Assembly (NCBI RefSeq): GCF_924101635.2
Contig: NZ_CAKMAA020000061.1
Coordinates: 1 to 54,648 of the forward strand
DNA: 54,648 nucleotides
Direction of reading: 5' to 3'
Source of the DNA: Candidatus Nitrotoga sp. HW29
GTDB taxonomy: Bacteria; Pseudomonadota; Gammaproteobacteria; Burkholderiales; Gallionellaceae
How positions within the stretch are numbered: the first letter of the stretch is position 1; each line of letters begins with the position of its first letter. Shown in pieces: positions 40,666-47,624 of this stretch. Below the pieces are notes generated by a model, which was not told the origin of the DNA, did not search any database, and saw only the letters and a list, made by a program, of their open reading frames with translations. A program made the translations under genes and the position numbers.

Positions 40666-42045
40666 CTAATGCTGCAACGCCTTAATTATATCCTCGACTA
40701 CTTTTTTGGCATCTCCAAACACCATCATGGTTTTGTCTAAATAGAATAGATCATTGTCCAGTCCAGCATAGCCGACAGCCATACTACGTTTGACTACCAT
40801 AACAGTACGCGCCTTGTGTGCCTCAATGATCGGCATGCCATAAATAGGGGAGTTAGGGTCGGTTTTGGCCGCAGGATTGACCACGTCGTTGGCACCGATG
40901 ACGAGTACTACATCCGTATCGGCAAATTCGTTATTGATCTCGTCCATTTCAAATACTTGATCGTAAGGTACTTCAGCCTCGGCCAGCAATACGTTCATAT
41001 GACCCGGCATGCGTCCGGCCACAGGATGGATGGCATAACGTACTTTGACGCCATTCTTGATCAAATGGTCGGCCATTTCGTTAATTGCATGCTGTGCCCG
41101 CGCTACTGCCAAGCCATAGCCCGGCACGATGATGACGCTATTCGCATTGCCCATCAGGAATGCAGCATCATCCGCGCTGCCGCTACGTACTGGCCGCTGC
41201 TCGACTTTTCCTGCTTCCACGGCACCTTCGCCACCGCCAAAGCCACCAAGAATTACATTGAAGAAGGAGCGGTTCATTGCCTTGCACATAATGTAAGAAA
41301 GAATCGCACCAGAGCTGCCGACTAACGAACCGGCAATAATCAGCATATTATTGTTCAGAGTAAAGCCGATGCCGGCCGCCGCCCATCCGGAATACGAGTT
41401 AAGCATGGATACCACGACGGGCATGTCTGCTCCGCCAATCGGCAAAATCAGCAATACACCCAGCGACAGCGCCAGAGCAATCATGATCAGGAATGGCACC
41501 CAGCTTTGCGTGAAAATGAACATGATGCCGAAGGCGATCATCACAATACCCAGAAACAGGTTGAACCAGTGCTGTCCAGCAAAATGCAGCGGCTTGCTGC
41601 CGAGTTTGCCGGACAGTTTTCCGAAAGCGATGATAGAGCCGGTGAATGTAATTGCACCAACAAACGTGCCGATGAATAACTCAATCAGATTGCTGGCGTG
41701 CAGCGGCGAGATGCCGTAGGCGACGGGATTATAAAACGCGGACATGGCGACCAGCACCGCTGCCAGACCGACCAGTGAATGCATTGCCGCTACCAATTCC
41801 GGCATGGCAGTCATTTGAATGCGCCGGGCGACTACCGCGCCTATCGCTCCGCCCACGATGATGGCAAGCGCAATATAAATCAGGTTTTGGGTGATAGTCA
41901 GTGTGGTGAGCACCGCAATAGTCATACCTATTATGCCAAACATGTTTCCGCGCCGTGCTGAAACGGGAGAACTTAAGCCTTTCAGCGCCAGGATAAATAG
42001 AACTGCGGCGATTAAATAGGCTAATGCAACAAAATTTGCCGACAT
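40666..42045 (-). CDS. pntB: NAD(P) transhydrogenase subunit beta
   Basis: A protein of 459 residues; the ATG at 42045 follows AAGGAAAAATC and fits the family start SANFVALAYLIAAVLFILAL. The membrane domain II (about residues 1-260) has multiple helices, including MPVVVSMLNSYSGWAAAGIG. The C-terminal NADP(H)-binding domain III shows SVIIVPGYGLAVARAQHAIN, HPVAGRMPGHMNVLLAEAEV and VLVIGANDVVNPAAKTDPNS. It couples hydride transfer between NADH and NADP+ to proton flow. It is the last gene of the pnt operon. Confidence 0.96.
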   Translation of the reverse strand: MSANFVALAYLIAAVLFILALKGLSSPVSARRGNMFGIIGMTIAVLTTLTITQNLIYIALAIIVGGAIGAVVARRIQMTAMPELVAAMHSLVGLAAVLVAMSAFYNPVAYGISPLHASNLIELFIGTFVGAITFTGSIIAFGKLSGKLGSKPLHFAGQHWFNLFLGIVMIAFGIMFIFTQSWVPFLIMIALALSLGVLLILPIGGADMPVVVSMLNSYSGWAAAGIGFTLNNNMLIIAGSLVGSSGAILSYIMCKAMNRSFFNVILGGFGGGEGAVEAGKVEQRPVRSGSADDAAFLMGNANSVIIVPGYGLAVARAQHAINEMADHLIKNGVKVRYAIHPVAGRMPGHMNVLLAEAEVPYDQVFEMDEINNEFADTDVVLVIGANDVVNPAAKTDPNSPIYGMPIIEAHKARTVMVVKRSMAVGYAGLDNDLFYLDKTMMVFGDAKKVVEDIIKALQH

Positions 42046-42194
42046 GATTTTTCCTTGATTATTTTTTGTAACTGCTTCACCTCGCAAATCAGGTGAAGTA
42101 TAGTGATGCTCAAAAAAAGTAGAGAGTCATTCCAAATTAATGGTTGATATTGCTCTGCTGTGCCTCTTTGCGTCTGAGCATCAACGTCCCGGAT

Positions 42195-42491
42195 TTATTT
42201 ATTTTTCTTTTTGAACATGCTCAACATGCGCTGTGTTACCAGAAAACCACCGAATACGTTAATTGCCGCCAACATAACTGCAATTAAGCCCATGACTGTG
42301 CCGGCGTCGAGTTGCTCGGGTCCCGCCGCCAGCATGGCGCCAACGATGATAATGCCGCTAATTGCGTTGGTCACTGCCATGAGCGGTGTATGTAACGCAG
42401 GCGTGACATTCCATACCACGTGATAGCCAACCACTACGGCCAATACGAATACGGTCAGATTGATAATGACAGGATCAATTGCACTACTCAT
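42195..42491 (-). CDS. pntAB: NAD(P) transhydrogenase subunit alpha 2 (membrane part)
   Basis: A 98-residue protein with three transmembrane helices. Conserved phrases are [32 protein letters not shown] and [18 protein letters not shown]. It forms the alpha-side membrane segment in organisms with split alpha subunits, such as Rhodospirillum. It lies between pntAA and pntB with spacers of 74 and 149 bases. Confidence 0.95.
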
Positions 42492-42565: not shown

Positions 42566-43690
42566 TTATTTAATAATCACTTCTCCGTCGATACACAACA
42601 GCGATCCGGCGATAATGTCATCAGTGCGATTAATGTTCGTCTTTCCGCCATTCTTGGGATCGCATAGTAAATTTAAGAAATTCAATAGATTGCGTGCATA
42701 TAAAGCACTGGCATCTGCAGCAACCAAAGCAGGTAAGTTGTCTTCACCCACCAACGTGATGCCATGCTTAACCACCGTTTTTCCTAATTCGGACAATGGG
42801 CAATTGCCGCCTGCTTCAACAGCCATATCCACGATCACGGAACCTGGCTTCATGGATTTGACCATATCCTCTGTTACCAGCACTGGTGCGGTTTTACCGG
42901 GGATCAATGCAGTGGTAATGACAATATCGGCTTGCGCCACACGTTTGGCAACCTCCACCTTTTGACGAGCCATCCAACTGGCGGGCATGGGGCGGGCATA
43001 GCCGCCAACGCCTTGGGCAATCTCACGTTCCTCATCCGTTTCATAAGATACATCAATGAATTTGGCGCCCAGGGATTCCACTTGTTCTTTTACCGCAGGA
43101 CGCACATCGGAGGCCTCAATTATCGCTCCCATGCGCTTGGCGGTAGCGATAGCTTGCAACCCGGCCACACCCACACCTAATATCACTACGCGTGCAGCCT
43201 TCACCGTTCCGGCAGCCGTCATTAACATCGGCATAAACCGTTTATATAAATTAGCCGCTACCAGCACTGCCTTATACCCGGCAATGTTAGCTTGCGAAGA
43301 CAAAACATCCATAGCTTGCGCGCGTGACGTGCGCGGCAGCTTTTCCATGGCAAAAGCGATGACACCTTGCTTGGCGTAGGCTGCAACCAAGTTCGTCTGG
43401 GAAGGTGAAAGCAAGCCAATTAGTATCGTTTTGGCGGCCAACTTCGCCAGCTCGTCTTCAGTTGGGGCTCTCACTTTAAGCATGATTTCCGCTTGTGCAT
43501 AAACTTCCGCGGCGCTGACCAAGGTGGCACCTGCTGCCTGATAGTCTGCATCGGGAATACTCGCGCCTGCTCCGGCACCCTGTTGCACTATGACCGCATG
43601 ACCGGCGGCCAACATTTTTTTTACCGTTTCGGGTGTTGCAGCGACACGTGTTTCACCTGCGTGCGTTTCCGTAGGAATGCCTATACGCAT
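42566..43690 (-). CDS. pntAA: NAD(P) transhydrogenase subunit alpha 1 (NAD-binding)
   Basis: A 374-residue soluble domain I protein. The start MRIGIPTETHAGETRVAATP and ETVKKMLAAGHAVIVQ are typical, the Rossmann loop is VVILGVGVAGLQAIATAKRM, and the mobile loop region carries GGYARPMPASWM. It binds NAD(H) and passes hydride to domain III of PntB. It is the first pnt gene. A hairpin with a minus-strand T-run lies between it and the flavoprotein gene upstream. Confidence 0.95.
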   Translation of the reverse strand: MRIGIPTETHAGETRVAATPETVKKMLAAGHAVIVQQGAGAGASIPDADYQAAGATLVSAAEVYAQAEIMLKVRAPTEDELAKLAAKTILIGLLSPSQTNLVAAYAKQGVIAFAMEKLPRTSRAQAMDVLSSQANIAGYKAVLVAANLYKRFMPMLMTAAGTVKAARVVILGVGVAGLQAIATAKRMGAIIEASDVRPAVKEQVESLGAKFIDVSYETDEEREIAQGVGGYARPMPASWMARQKVEVAKRVAQADIVITTALIPGKTAPVLVTEDMVKSMKPGSVIVDMAVEAGGNCPLSELGKTVVKHGITLVGEDNLPALVAADASALYARNLLNFLNLLCDPKNGGKTNINRTDDIIAGSLLCIDGEVIIK

Positions 43691-43760: not shown

Positions 43761-46700
43761 TCAAGATGTGCCTGTCAATATGTCATCTTGTTCTATGCAA
43801 TGCGCTATCCACTGTGCGGTCAGTTTTTCCTGCACGGTATTTTGCTTGAGTCGTGCATTCAACCCGGGGAAGCTTACGCAATCCAGTCGCTGATCCTGAT
43901 TAAAACAGGAGAATACATAGGTTTTTTCTCCGGTTGAAATATCGAAGTGCTCTTGAATGCACTGCCCGCAAATCTCTTTCATCATGCATTGCATGGGTGA
44001 ATTGATGGAACCAAAGGCGTGGTGATCCGGTTTCATATAAGGTTTCAGTTCGTTATGGCGGGCCGCCGCAACCGCGGCCATCATCCTGTCCGAACCAATT
44101 GCAATGATCCGGTCGACCTGATTCATCGCGATGTCTGGCTGGCCCAATTCGCCGCTGGCGTAGGCTTTGATGGCTTGCACGATGTTACCTACATATGTTC
44201 GGTCTTGGGGACGATCCGGTATAAATCCGGGCGCTTCATCACTGCACCAAATCACCACATCGGCGGCCATTTCGATGTCTTCCACCTTGTAGCGATCGAT
44301 CATTTTTTTGTAGCCGGCAAAGTATAAAACTTTAGAGCCCGCGCTACGGAATGCCTTGCCGATGGAGAACAGTACGGCATTACCTAAACCTCCACCAACC
44401 AGCAACACTGTTTCCCCCGGCGCGATCTCAGTGGGCGTACCCGTTGGCCCCATAAGCACTACCGGTTCACCGGGCTTCAGTTTGGCACATAATTGCGAGG
44501 AGCCGCCCATTTCCAGCACAATCGTAGAGAGCAAACCTTGCTCGGCATCAACCCAGGCGCCGGTCAGGGCTAACCCTTCCATGACCATGCGCGTACCATC
44601 GATTTGTGCAGCATGAGTTTCGTAATTCTGCAGGCGATAGAACTGCCCCGGTTGAAAGTTGCGCGCTGCGGCAGGGGCTTTGACGATCACCTCGACAATA
44701 TTGGGAGTAAGACGGACCACTTGATGTATGGTGGCACGCAGATCGTTGCCCAAGCGAGCAAGAAATTCCTGATTATTCTCTTTAGCTGCAGCGGTAACCT
44801 GTGACAGCACTTTGCTCAGCACCGGATAACCCTGTTTCGCACTGCCCATAGCCTTGACTACGTTACCGGAATATGAAGGATGCAGGTCACCGAAAAAGCT
44901 GACGAAACGACCATCATGGTATTTGTACTGAAGCACGTGTGCCTTGGCCGGCTTGGCATTGCTACGTTCTGGCCTGACTGGCTCTCCCTGTTCGTCACAT
45001 GCCTGGAAGTAACGTCCATCAAGCTTGAACTGTTCTGGAAACTCCCGTGCCAGCACGGTATTCGGTTGGGTGCCCGCAGCCACAAAAATGGTGCGCGCAG
45101 GCAGATGTATTTGCCCGGCTTTTTGCCAAGCGCCATCGGCATCCAATTTCTGGTTCATCACCACCATGGCGGTCGCATCACCATTTTCATCTATCTCTAC
45201 ACGCACTGGAGTCAAACCTTCGGCAAAATAAATTCCTTCCTCCAGAGCCTTTTCCACTTCCTCATGATTGAGGGTATAGGATGGGCTGTCGACCAGCCGC
45301 TTGCGATAGGCCAAAGTGACGCCACCCCATGATTTGATAAGCTGAAGAATATTGGGATCACGTCCCTCGATCGAAGCCAGAGCTCGCTCCGCGCGTATAG
45401 CCCGGGCATGACTCAAAAATTCGTCGCCTATAATTGCTTCAGTCGCCGACCACATGCGGCGCAATGCCGCCTCACCTTTTTCTGCCGTCAACATTTCGTA
45501 GCGGCAAAGAAATTTCTCAACCTGTACCGGGTAATAGGCGAGAGATTCAGTGGCGGTGTCAATAGCGGTTAAGCCCCCGCCGATGACTACAACCGGCAAG
45601 CGAACTTGCATGTTGGCGATGGAGTCGGGCTTGGCGGCACCTGTCAATTGCAACGCCATCAGAAAATCCGACGCAGTGCGAACACCGCATGCCATGCCGT
45701 TTGGTATGTCGAGCAATGTCGGACGGCCAGCACCAGCGGCCAGTGCAATATGATCGAAGCCCAGCTCAAAAGCACTTTCAGCAGTAATTGTTCCACCAAA
45801 ACGCACACCGCCGAATAGCGCGAACTCTGCGCGCCGTTCCAGCAGCAGGCGGATAATTTTAAGAAAATTCTTATCCCATCGAACCGTAATGCCATACTCG
45901 GCCACTCCGCCAAAACCGGCCATCACTCTATTATCCAGTGGTTCTTTCAATGCACTTGCATCATAGATCGGGCTAAATGGCACTCGATTACCACCGGCAT
46001 CTACACCGGATAAATCGCCCGGCAAGGGTTCGATTTTTAATCCGTCAATACCGGCAACAATATGGCCGTCGTTCATTAAATGATGTGCTAGCGTAAAACC
46101 GGCAGGACCCATGCCGACCACAAGTACACGCTTACCAGTGCTGGCACGCGGATAGGGGCGGCGAATATTAAGCGGATTCCATCGGGTGAGCAGGCTGTAG
46201 ATTTCAAAGCCCCATGGCAGCTCTAGAACGTCCTTCAATGATCGCGTTTCAGACTGTGGAATATTGACCGGCTCTTGCTTTTGATAGATACAGGATTTCA
46301 TGCAGTCATTGCAAATACGATGACCGGTTGCGGCGCACATTGGATTATCGACAGCAATAACAGCTAAGGCACCCAGCGCCAGACCGGAAGCTTTAACTTT
46401 ATGAAATTCTGATATTTTCTCATCTACAGGACAACCCGCCAGCGGAATACCGAAAGTGCTTTTCTTGAACGGAGGGGGAACGTCCGCAACGCTTTCTTTT
46501 TCTCGCAGCCCGATCGAGCATGAGTCTTTGCCTTGTTCATGGCACCAAATGCAGTAATTAGCTTCACCCAAGGCACCCGCCAAGTTCGTGCCGTTATCTG
46601 TCAGGGCGAACCCCTCGCGCTGACGCAAATGGCTATCTGCAAGGCGATGCGCAGTATATGAAATATTTTCAACGGGGATGATAGGTACCAGACGCTGAAA

Positions 46701-47345
46701 GTCGAGTTTGGCAGGTAGCTTGAACAACACGCCATGCCCGTGGCGTTTTTTCCCGGCCGTGGAAAGCGCCGCCCAAGCCGCGTAACGCATGGCGGTATCA
46801 AGTTTGTCTATATTTTCTGCTTCGGCATCGAGCCAACCATTAACGTGACGGGCAAATAGTAATTCATTCATCTCATCGGTCGCATCGCCGAAAGCTTGTA
46901 ACAAAGCTGCCGCGAGGATGTCTCCATCGAAAGCCGCGGCATCGGCTGCCTTATACTTGTGTATGGCTTTACGCTGCACAAAAATACGTTTGCAGTGAAA
47001 TAGTGGTGCCAGCTCATGGTGCTGTTCCGCCAATTCGCGTACCGCAACCTGAATATTAAATAATTGACCAAGAAAATCTTCCAGATGGGGGGCCAGATCA
47101 ATAATGAGTTGCGATTCTTCCAGATGTGTTAAATGATCCGGTGCATTACGTGCCGCCGCCAATTTTTCTGCCAGCAATGGTTCGCCTTTAGCGAGTTCGG
47201 CCAAAAAGTACGAGTCGATGCGAGGCAATCCATCGTAGCTGTAGAGATCTTCAAAGTTCATTCCAAATCCCAGTTTTAAAACTGGGGGCGGAACGATACC
47301 TTTATCAGTATCTGTGATACGTTGCTCAGAATTTAAGCTTTCCAT
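43761..47345 (-). CDS. Fused GltD/NfnB-like and PyrK/NfnA-like flavoprotein
   Basis: A protein of 1194 residues from the ATG at 47345 (TAGGAG upstream); the frame is open to 47468 but that part looks untranslated. Residues 1 to about 260 are an N-terminal region I do not recognise. Residues 265-352 copy the GltD-type Fe-S region: C265, C268, C276, C305 (GCPVDEKISEFH), C337, C345, C348, C352. Two Rossmann domains follow (VLVVGMGPAGFTLAHHL at about 407; VVVIGGGLTAIDTATESL). From about residue 920 a ferredoxin-reductase/PyrK-like part has NFQPGQFYRLQNYE (FAD), LLVGGGLGNAVLFSIG (NAD(P)) and a [2Fe-2S] pattern C1120, C1126, C1129, C1147. The order equals NfnB followed by NfnA in one chain. By analogy it may couple NADH, NADPH and ferredoxin. 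It lies next to pntAA; the reaction is not proven. Confidence 0.75.
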   Translation of the reverse strand: MESLNSEQRITDTDKGIVPPPVLKLGFGMNFEDLYSYDGLPRIDSYFLAELAKGEPLLAEKLAAARNAPDHLTHLEESQLIIDLAPHLEDFLGQLFNIQVAVRELAEQHHELAPLFHCKRIFVQRKAIHKYKAADAAAFDGDILAAALLQAFGDATDEMNELLFARHVNGWLDAEAENIDKLDTAMRYAAWAALSTAGKKRHGHGVLFKLPAKLDFQRLVPIIPVENISYTAHRLADSHLRQREGFALTDNGTNLAGALGEANYCIWCHEQGKDSCSIGLREKESVADVPPPFKKSTFGIPLAGCPVDEKISEFHKVKASGLALGALAVIAVDNPMCAATGHRICNDCMKSCIYQKQEPVNIPQSETRSLKDVLELPWGFEIYSLLTRWNPLNIRRPYPRASTGKRVLVVGMGPAGFTLAHHLMNDGHIVAGIDGLKIEPLPGDLSGVDAGGNRVPFSPIYDASALKEPLDNRVMAGFGGVAEYGITVRWDKNFLKIIRLLLERRAEFALFGGVRFGGTITAESAFELGFDHIALAAGAGRPTLLDIPNGMACGVRTASDFLMALQLTGAAKPDSIANMQVRLPVVVIGGGLTAIDTATESLAYYPVQVEKFLCRYEMLTAEKGEAALRRMWSATEAIIGDEFLSHARAIRAERALASIEGRDPNILQLIKSWGGVTLAYRKRLVDSPSYTLNHEEVEKALEEGIYFAEGLTPVRVEIDENGDATAMVVMNQKLDADGAWQKAGQIHLPARTIFVAAGTQPNTVLAREFPEQFKLDGRYFQACDEQGEPVRPERSNAKPAKAHVLQYKYHDGRFVSFFGDLHPSYSGNVVKAMGSAKQGYPVLSKVLSQVTAAAKENNQEFLARLGNDLRATIHQVVRLTPNIVEVIVKAPAAARNFQPGQFYRLQNYETHAAQIDGTRMVMEGLALTGAWVDAEQGLLSTIVLEMGGSSQLCAKLKPGEPVVLMGPTGTPTEIAPGETVLLVGGGLGNAVLFSIGKAFRSAGSKVLYFAGYKKMIDRYKVEDIEMAADVVIWCSDEAPGFIPDRPQDRTYVGNIVQAIKAYASGELGQPDIAMNQVDRIIAIGSDRMMAAVAAARHNELKPYMKPDHHAFGSINSPMQCMMKEICGQCIQEHFDISTGEKTYVFSCFNQDQRLDCVSFPGLNARLKQNTVQEKLTAQWIAHCIEQDDILTGTS

Positions 47346-47472
47346 GCAGTGCAAACTCCTAAATTTATATGCGCTATGAACTTTAAAGTGAGGAGGTCGC
47401 TCACCCAATTGTAGGCAAGATATCTTGCTTACATGCGGACAAAACGCCTGCGCTCCAGCCCCAAGCATATTA

Positions 47473-47493
47473 AAAATGCCCGGTTATACCGGG
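47473..47493 (-). terminator. Terminator-like hairpin upstream of the Nfn-like gene
   Basis: TGCCCGG and CCGGGCA arms with loop TTATA, followed on the minus strand by TTTTTA. It is almost the same hairpin as at 43708-43732 but no minus-strand gene ends just upstream of it, so it may be the leftover terminator of a lost gene. Two direct copies of ATTATACGATTTTAT follow at about 47519 and 47544. Confidence 0.5.
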
Positions 47494-47624
47494 CAATAAT
47501 AATTTATATCAACTTATAATTATACGATTTTATTAGCCTAGGATTATACGATTTTATCTTCGGCACCGCACTGCCATAGCATGAAAAAGTTATAATTCAT
47601 TGTCTGTAACCTGAATTGTTTTAT

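Follow-up and report, generated by a model that had tools for sequence, protein, structure and literature searches.

The fused gene and its product

The window considered here is the whole 54,648-nt stretch of contig NZ_CAKMAA020000061.1 (contig C61 of the 3.0-Mb genome G000) from Candidatus Nitrotoga sp. HW29, a nitrite oxidiser of the Gallionellaceae. Its minus strand carries a gene for an Nfn-like flavoprotein, followed by genes for the proton-translocating transhydrogenase Pnt. Since genes of this family were found repeatedly beside NADPH-making and sulfate-assimilation genes, their arrangement suggests that the fused Nfn-like protein may turn NADPH into low-potential electrons.

A preliminary description of the window had given the exact coordinates of the gene, leaving the strand unstated, and an equally exact numbering of its Cys residues (the C265–C352 set and C1120, C1126, C1129 and C1147). 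The gene and its parts are as follows.

43761..47345, minus: nfn-like fused flavoprotein gene (1194 aa, stop included; start Met with AGGAG upstream)
46641..47345, minus: all-helical N-terminal domain, residues 1 to ~235 (structure models; no PDB fold match)
46248..46562, minus: Fer4_20-like double [4Fe-4S] region, residues 262–366 (PF14691, 25.2 bits against a cut-off of 25.8; ligands invariant in 60/60 homologues)
44736..46160, minus: GltD/NfnB-like FAD and NADP(H) domains, residues ~396–870 (PF07992, E 6.4e-13; PDB matches)
43764..44735, minus: PyrK/NfnA-like half, residues ~871–1194 (phmmer to 4ylf_A and 5jca_S; hhalign to NfnA of genome G034; motif)

The enclosing open reading frame (ORF) spans 43761–47468 on the same strand, with the likely start Met at 47345 and AGGAG located 11–15 bases before the ATG.

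Conservation was assessed on an alignment of 99 rows, reduced to 60 by removing rows of more than 84% identity; L023 (in-frame stop) and the short sequences L100, L101 and L103 had been left out beforehand. All twelve Fe-S ligands, eleven Cys and E366, were invariant in the 60 homologues. Eight of them (C265, C268, C276, C305, C345, C348, C352 and E366) belong to the double [4Fe-4S] region, and their assignment to individual clusters is assumed by us to follow dihydropyrimidine dehydrogenase and Nfn. E366 aligned in 60/60 with E126 of Pyrococcus furiosus Nfn, the Glu ligand of the proximal [4Fe-4S] cluster. The NfnB-like half contains the motifs GMGPAG (411–416), GGGLTA (589–594) and YR(K/R)R (680–683), together with the invariant R489, which phmmer places on the N5 arginine R201 with a one-residue gap and hhalign to NfnB of G034 does not. 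At the NADP site, R681 was found in 60/60 homologues, K or R at 682 in 59/60 and R683 in 57/60. Relative to NfnB, long insertions are present at ~436–475 and ~605–672.

The NfnA-like half comprises an FAD fold, an NAD lobe (GGGLGNA, 984–990) and a four-Cys [2Fe-2S] site (C1120, C1126, C1129 and C1147). The spacing C-x5-C-x2-C-x17-C occurred in 52/60 homologues and was one residue longer in four; the pattern missed the remaining four. The preliminary description had proposed a comparison of ligands with those of NfnB and NfnA. The two [4Fe-4S] sites and the [2Fe-2S] site are indeed conserved in 60/60, but the NfnA motif DGTGMCGxC is not found, because a Cys stands at the place of its Asp ligand in all 60 sequences.

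AlphaFold run on the 60-row alignment gave a mean predicted local distance difference test (pLDDT) value of 88.2 and a predicted TM-score (pTM) of 0.90, with pLDDT below 50 at residues 1–18 and 479–485, the latter adjoining the presumed FAD site. In the Foldseek search, the top match was P. furiosus NfnI-L (TM-score by target 0.81); NfnI-S scored 0.89, Xfn came third with 0.78, and GltD scored 0.73. The hhalign comparison with the canonical NfnB and NfnA of G034 agreed with the fold search. Residues 1–252, folded alone, formed a confident helical domain (pLDDT 89, pTM 0.73), for which Foldseek found no PDB match (best E 1.7). According to the model, the protein is an NfnB half joined to an NfnA half in one chain. 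Thus, the order B then A in one polypeptide, as well as the two flavin and two dinucleotide folds claimed in the preliminary description, was borne out by the ligands, the alignments, the PDB and profile matches and the predicted structure. The 9n5u entry "NfnA", considered as a fused Nfn, was rejected, as it is the Thermococcus NfnABC complex. As a separate observation, G034, a genome of the same order as the window, contains both the fused gene and the canonical two-gene nfnB-nfnA pair (L123, G034:C14, 3–5154), the latter next to korAB.

In the leader of the gene, GGAGTT and ATGGAAAG were identical in all 9/9 leaders aligned, which came from the window and from Nitrotoga-type loci. The minus strand also carries, at 47477–47495, a GC-rich hairpin with a T run after it. 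This element, a possible attenuator, precedes the start codon by about 130 nt and is seen again at several Nitrotoga loci. An Rfam scan of the leader returned no family above the gathering threshold.

Distribution of the family and its reduced members

A pattern search of GTDB contigs yielded, among the matches listed, 579 of 587 stretches that encode relatives of the protein, and 80 loci were kept. All locus and neighbour counts given below rest on these 80 loci out of at least 579 relatives. The closest homologues named to genus, among the matches listed, belong to Candidatus Nitrotoga (85–90% identity). In related genomes, 30/41 had a match at E <= 0.001, of which 28 were at E < 1e-100 and two were weak and of the GltD type only. 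A chance match is therefore excluded by the at least 579 relatives among the matches listed and the 28/41 related genomes at E < 1e-100. When 299 genomes were drawn evenly across the phylum, 15 had the fused gene at E <= 1e-30. It was found in 51/71 genomes of the order of G103, which looks like a Rickettsiales-type order; we infer this name from the PRK06567-type form of the protein. The hosts of the family include nitrite oxidisers, ammonia oxidisers, Azospirillum and the Rickettsiales-type order. Four environmental metagenome-assembled genome records (L011, L021, L038 and L030) are titled Bordetella parapertussis or Chitinophaga pinensis; they cluster in the tree with unnamed Betaproteobacteria, and their titles are probably wrong.

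Pfam matches of the 1194-aa protein were restricted to Pyr_redox_2, a sub-threshold Fer4_20 and a chance-level MurD match. The top NCBIfam model was NF005128 (PRK06567), with E 1e-228 and 761.9 bits, under the cut-off of 1072. This model, named "putative bifunctional glutamate synthase subunit beta/2-polyprenylphenol hydroxylase", is matched end to end (2051 bits) by the reduced 1043-aa homologue L139. It represents the same family as the window protein, but it fits a reduced form that has lost most of the NAD lobe. The window protein scored 92.6 bits on NF009415 and did not reach its cut-off of 1519. For the NfnA-like halves, the name "2-polyprenylphenol hydroxylase" of both models is misleading.

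Eight extra homologues (L139–L146) were compared for what is conserved. R489 and the twelve ligands are complete in six of them. The other two lack some ligands because their sequences are truncated: the reading of L143 begins at an internal Met, and L145 runs into the end of its stretch. L139, L140, L144 and L146 have lost most of the NAD lobe, together with the glycine at 986. The GGGLGNA motif, intact in the window, is degenerate in these four and in L102, while the NADP arginine 681 is gone in L144, L145 and L146. L139 and L140 come from genomes of 1.2 and 2.0 Mb with no CysI match. Because the NAD lobe decays while the cluster ligands stay, a three-substrate bifurcation does not appear to be the conserved function; judging from the sequences, the constant part of the family would be the electron-transfer chain.

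Linkage to pnt and to sulfate-assimilation genes

The position of the fused gene directly upstream of pntAA-pntAB-pntB, on the same strand, was confirmed.

42566..43690, minus: pntAA (NF006942, 402 bits, over the cut-off of 383; 70 bp downstream of the fused gene)
42195..42491 (approximate, hand-counted), minus: pntAB (translation; C-terminal match of TIGR00561)
40666..42087, minus: pntB (NF006974, 595 bits, below the cut-off of 689; whole model matched)

Among the 73/80 loci with at least 1200 nt downstream, pntAA lay within 1 kb on the same strand in 21, which fall into two separate clades. In the sampled loci, the records and the tree restrict this link to the Nitrotoga/Gallionellaceae group and Nitrosomonadaceae. 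Loci with pnt only belong to Nitrotoga, Gallionellaceae or Nitrosomonadales, with the addition of one Nitrosomonas (L052, whose cysN was not called). The pnt-linked group of the window lies inside a 13-row branch (support 98), with Nitrosomonadaceae outside. A search for the fusion beside pnt had been proposed in the preliminary description; it showed that the link is real but lineage-bound. The presence of pntA anywhere in a genome is uninformative, as 46/48 genomes match at E <= 1e-20, some only with the alanine-dehydrogenase type. Other Betaproteobacteria and Azospirillum have different neighbours, and in Azospirillum neither cys nor pnt was seen beside the gene. In L110 (G076), genes named by eye as gnd-, zwf- and pgl-like precede the fused gene on its strand and are separated from it by one ORF of the opposite strand; gnd, zwf and pgl serve NADPH production.

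A separate link leads to sulfate assimilation. In 20 of the 65/80 loci with at least 6000 nt upstream, cysN and cysI were found upstream on the same strand, and 15 loci had both cys and pnt. According to the records, the cys-linked loci of this count belong to Nitrosomonadaceae, most of them also pnt-linked. The order in Nitrosomonas sp. Nm34 is cysI-cysH-cysD-cysN-fused gene-pntAA-pntAB-pntB. In G103, the order is cysI-siroheme gene-cysH-cysD-cysNC-fused gene, with a 2-bp gap before the fused gene. The same or a shorter run, in some cases with small ORFs between, was found in G378, G359, G373, G384 and G402, and only cysD-cysNC precedes the fused gene in G352. A quick tree of 73 rows was built, from which L137 (the same gene as L153) and L152 were left out and in which L102 forms a very long branch. 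The cys-linked rows fell into two separated groups, making up 12/12 and 11/14 rows of their branches (support 100 each); the label needs four changes on the tree, and the starred branches force three. In the order of G103, the fused gene lies 3.3–5.3 kb downstream of cysI on the same strand in 12 of the 27 genomes with a CysI match. The two CysI forms differ: that of Nitrosomonas has 698 aa and matches NirA, CysI and CobG only below threshold, and that of G103 passes NF010029.

CysI (TIGR02041) and its usual partner model CysJ (TIGR01931) were then compared over the 299 genomes, both at E <= 1e-100; these strict thresholds were used because a loose CysJ search of 48 genomes had given 34 matches at E <= 0.001 and only two over the cut-off. 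A TIGR02041 match was found in 42/299 genomes, 40 of them over the cut-off. CysJ accompanied it in 41/42, that is, in all 40 and in G153 (below the cut-off). The only CysJ-less genome of the 42 was G103, whose cys run includes the fused gene. In the order of G103, 27/71 genomes had a CysI match and seven of these 27 had CysJ. The fused gene was linked to cysI in 12/20 CysJ-less genomes vs 0/7 CysJ-bearing ones (one-sided Fisher test, 0.007, with relatedness ignored). The fused protein itself is no CysJ member: among the listed Pfam and NCBIfam matches to E 1, there was no flavodoxin or CysJ model. A CysJ-like 515-aa frame of the window genome was rejected as a candidate, since its neighbours look by eye like ApbE/PepSY genes and no CysI was seen within the 14-kb stretch.

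Based on the above results, we suggest that the same protein was probably recruited to sulfate-assimilation runs in Nitrosomonadaceae and in the Rickettsiales-type order, where its gene context makes it the probable electron donor of CysI in place of a missing CysJ. For a ferredoxin-dependent donor role, Ruegeria pomeroyi SPO2634 provides a precedent: excerpts of the report on it state that it depends on ferredoxin and that its assay used the ferredoxin and ferredoxin-NADP+ reductase (FNR) of the same organism (PMC13188885).

Several results weigh against the donor reading as a whole. No pntAA lay within 1 kb in 52/73 loci, and no cysN lay upstream in 45/65. The fused gene, counted anywhere in the genome, was present in 15/20 CysJ-less vs 4/7 CysJ-bearing genomes, with no clear difference (Fisher test, 0.33, relatedness again ignored). 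In the order of G103, 32/51 gene-bearing genomes had no CysI match, so sulfite is not a universal client of the protein. The G103 CysI scored 525 bits on TIGR02041 (cut-off 757) and 543 bits on the ferredoxin-type model (cut-off 732); given its failure to reach the TIGR02041 cut-off, CysJ may never have been its partner, and the enzyme may be of the ferredoxin type. Among 19 genomes with the L106-type CysI, five (one of them 53% complete) had neither CysJ nor the fused gene, and by eye no obvious donor was seen in the three of those five that had flanks. The Nitrosomonas-type CysI was not found in 18/19 genomes of the genus of the window, with one weak 31% match; the window genome itself was negative, in a search that did not extend to other siroheme reductases at low threshold. 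Finally, no assay of any family member was found in the open-licence literature searched through titles and the beginnings of abstracts.

Proposed role and alternatives

The preliminary description had proposed that Pnt and the fused protein could balance the same NADH/NADPH pools. The separate sulfate-assimilation link points beyond balancing alone, and from it we draw a delivery of low-potential electrons. From the fold, the ligands and the pnt and cys linkages, which fit NADPH use, we moderately favour a single-chain, NfnBA-shaped NAD(P)H oxidoreductase that supplies NADPH-driven low-potential electrons to ferredoxin or a siroheme reductase. As its conserved function, the protein would accept a hydride from NADPH on the FAD in the GltD/NfnB-like half and release single low-potential electrons via the two [4Fe-4S] clusters, either onto ferredoxin or straight onto a siroheme reductase. 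The other FAD and the [2Fe-2S] cluster, both in the PyrK-like half, would make up a second branch. This branch could exchange electrons with NAD(H), and might permit Nfn-type bifurcation, in proteins whose NAD lobe is intact, such as that of the window. In the window, the co-oriented Pnt would hold NADPH highly reduced by the proton-motive force, and the pair would act as a module leading from the proton-motive force to NADPH and on to low-potential electrons. The ligands, the linkages and the lack of a CysJ match are observed and the fold is predicted; the substrates, direction, partner and co-transcription are what we infer beyond them.

A true Nfn-type bifurcating transhydrogenase (2 NADPH + NAD+ + oxidised ferredoxin -> 2 NADP+ + NADH + reduced ferredoxin, or the reverse) is an appreciable but clearly less likely alternative. 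NfnI-L and NfnI-S are the nearest solved folds, E366 falls on the Glu ligand of the proximal cluster, one of the two aligners puts R489 on R201, and the NAD lobe of the window protein is intact. Sulfite is, however, reduced by NADPH in CysJ and FNR systems, which do so without bifurcation; bifurcation would be dispensable here and is for that reason a minority reading. The loss of the NAD lobe in reduced homologues and the third-best fold match, Xfn of P. furiosus, argue in the same direction, as does the Cys found at the [2Fe-2S] Asp position. Excerpts of a 2019 review describe that Asp as well conserved and tie it to the high potential of the cluster (PMC6405883). The same excerpts state that bifurcating and non-bifurcating Nfn homologues are indistinguishable from sequence alone, and they give P. 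furiosus NfnII as an example of a close relative that need not use NAD (PMC6405883). A more far-reaching proposal sees a hitherto unrecognised class of electron donor in Pseudomonadota that are aerobic and possibly host-associated. Here the fused protein, coupled to Pnt, would use bifurcation to convert proton-motive force, via NADPH, into low-potential electrons, and it would have replaced CysJ as donor of assimilatory sulfite reductase in two separate lineages. This proposal likewise seems doubtful to us.

It is still less probable that the enzyme works in reverse, making NADPH from ferredoxin reduced by a 2-oxoacid:ferredoxin oxidoreductase, with or without NADH. korA and korB do lie beside the fused gene, on the opposite strand, in G088 (L108) and G244 (L125), and in a hand-chosen set KorA was over the cut-off in 10/21 gene-bearing vs 1/27 other genomes (Fisher test, 0.0004). 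Over the 299 genomes, however, no clear excess was seen (6/15 vs 73/284; Fisher test, 0.24), G000, G005, G006, G009, G039 and G103 had no KorA match at E <= 1e-20, and the pnt and cys linkages fit the use of NADPH. It is highly improbable that the protein is just the small subunit of glutamate synthase or some other partner subunit like GltD, a reading close to the one that the preliminary description had named as refuting its claim. The GltD and Pyr_redox_2 profiles do match, but GltD ranks below NfnI-L in the fold search and a full NfnA-like half is present on the chain. Furthermore, the window genome has a separate GltB-GltD pair, and no gltB neighbour was seen in the ORF list of the window.

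Compared with known systems, the protein resembles NfnAB in its two halves, each with a flavin fold, in its NADP arginines and in its cluster sites (two [4Fe-4S], with a Glu ligand, and one [2Fe-2S]). It differs in being one chain in the order B-A, in the extra ~235-aa N-terminal domain and the two long insertions, and in a [2Fe-2S] site of four Cys instead of Asp and three Cys. The B-A fusion is already known as Pattern C (Mobiluncus curtisii type), with NfnB then NfnA in one chain, called uncharacterised in the review excerpts (PMC6405883). The family itself is already known as an uncharacterised database model. Pattern C is likely NF009415/PRK12779, from which the window protein is set apart by its score far below the cut-off. 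With CysJ and with the FNR of ferredoxin-dependent sulfite reduction it shares the place in the cys run and a probable role where CysJ is missing; unlike them, it has no flavodoxin/FMN domain, an unrelated architecture and three Fe-S cluster sites. The N-terminal domain, the all-Cys [2Fe-2S] site and the cys and pnt linkages were not found in the titles and abstract beginnings of the open-licence literature searched, nor did any paper on the family or its cys role turn up there.

According to excerpts of two surveys of bifurcating enzymes (PMC6085437, PMC6405883), Nfn is nearly confined to anaerobic and facultative microbes, with a single exception among aerobes. The present family, under its misleading database name, occurs in nitrite oxidisers, ammonia oxidisers, Azospirillum and a Rickettsiales-type order. 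If the donor role is true, it would contribute to explaining how such bacteria reduce CysI without CysJ and would account for the place of the gene beside pnt, and cultured ammonia oxidisers would offer a direct test ground.

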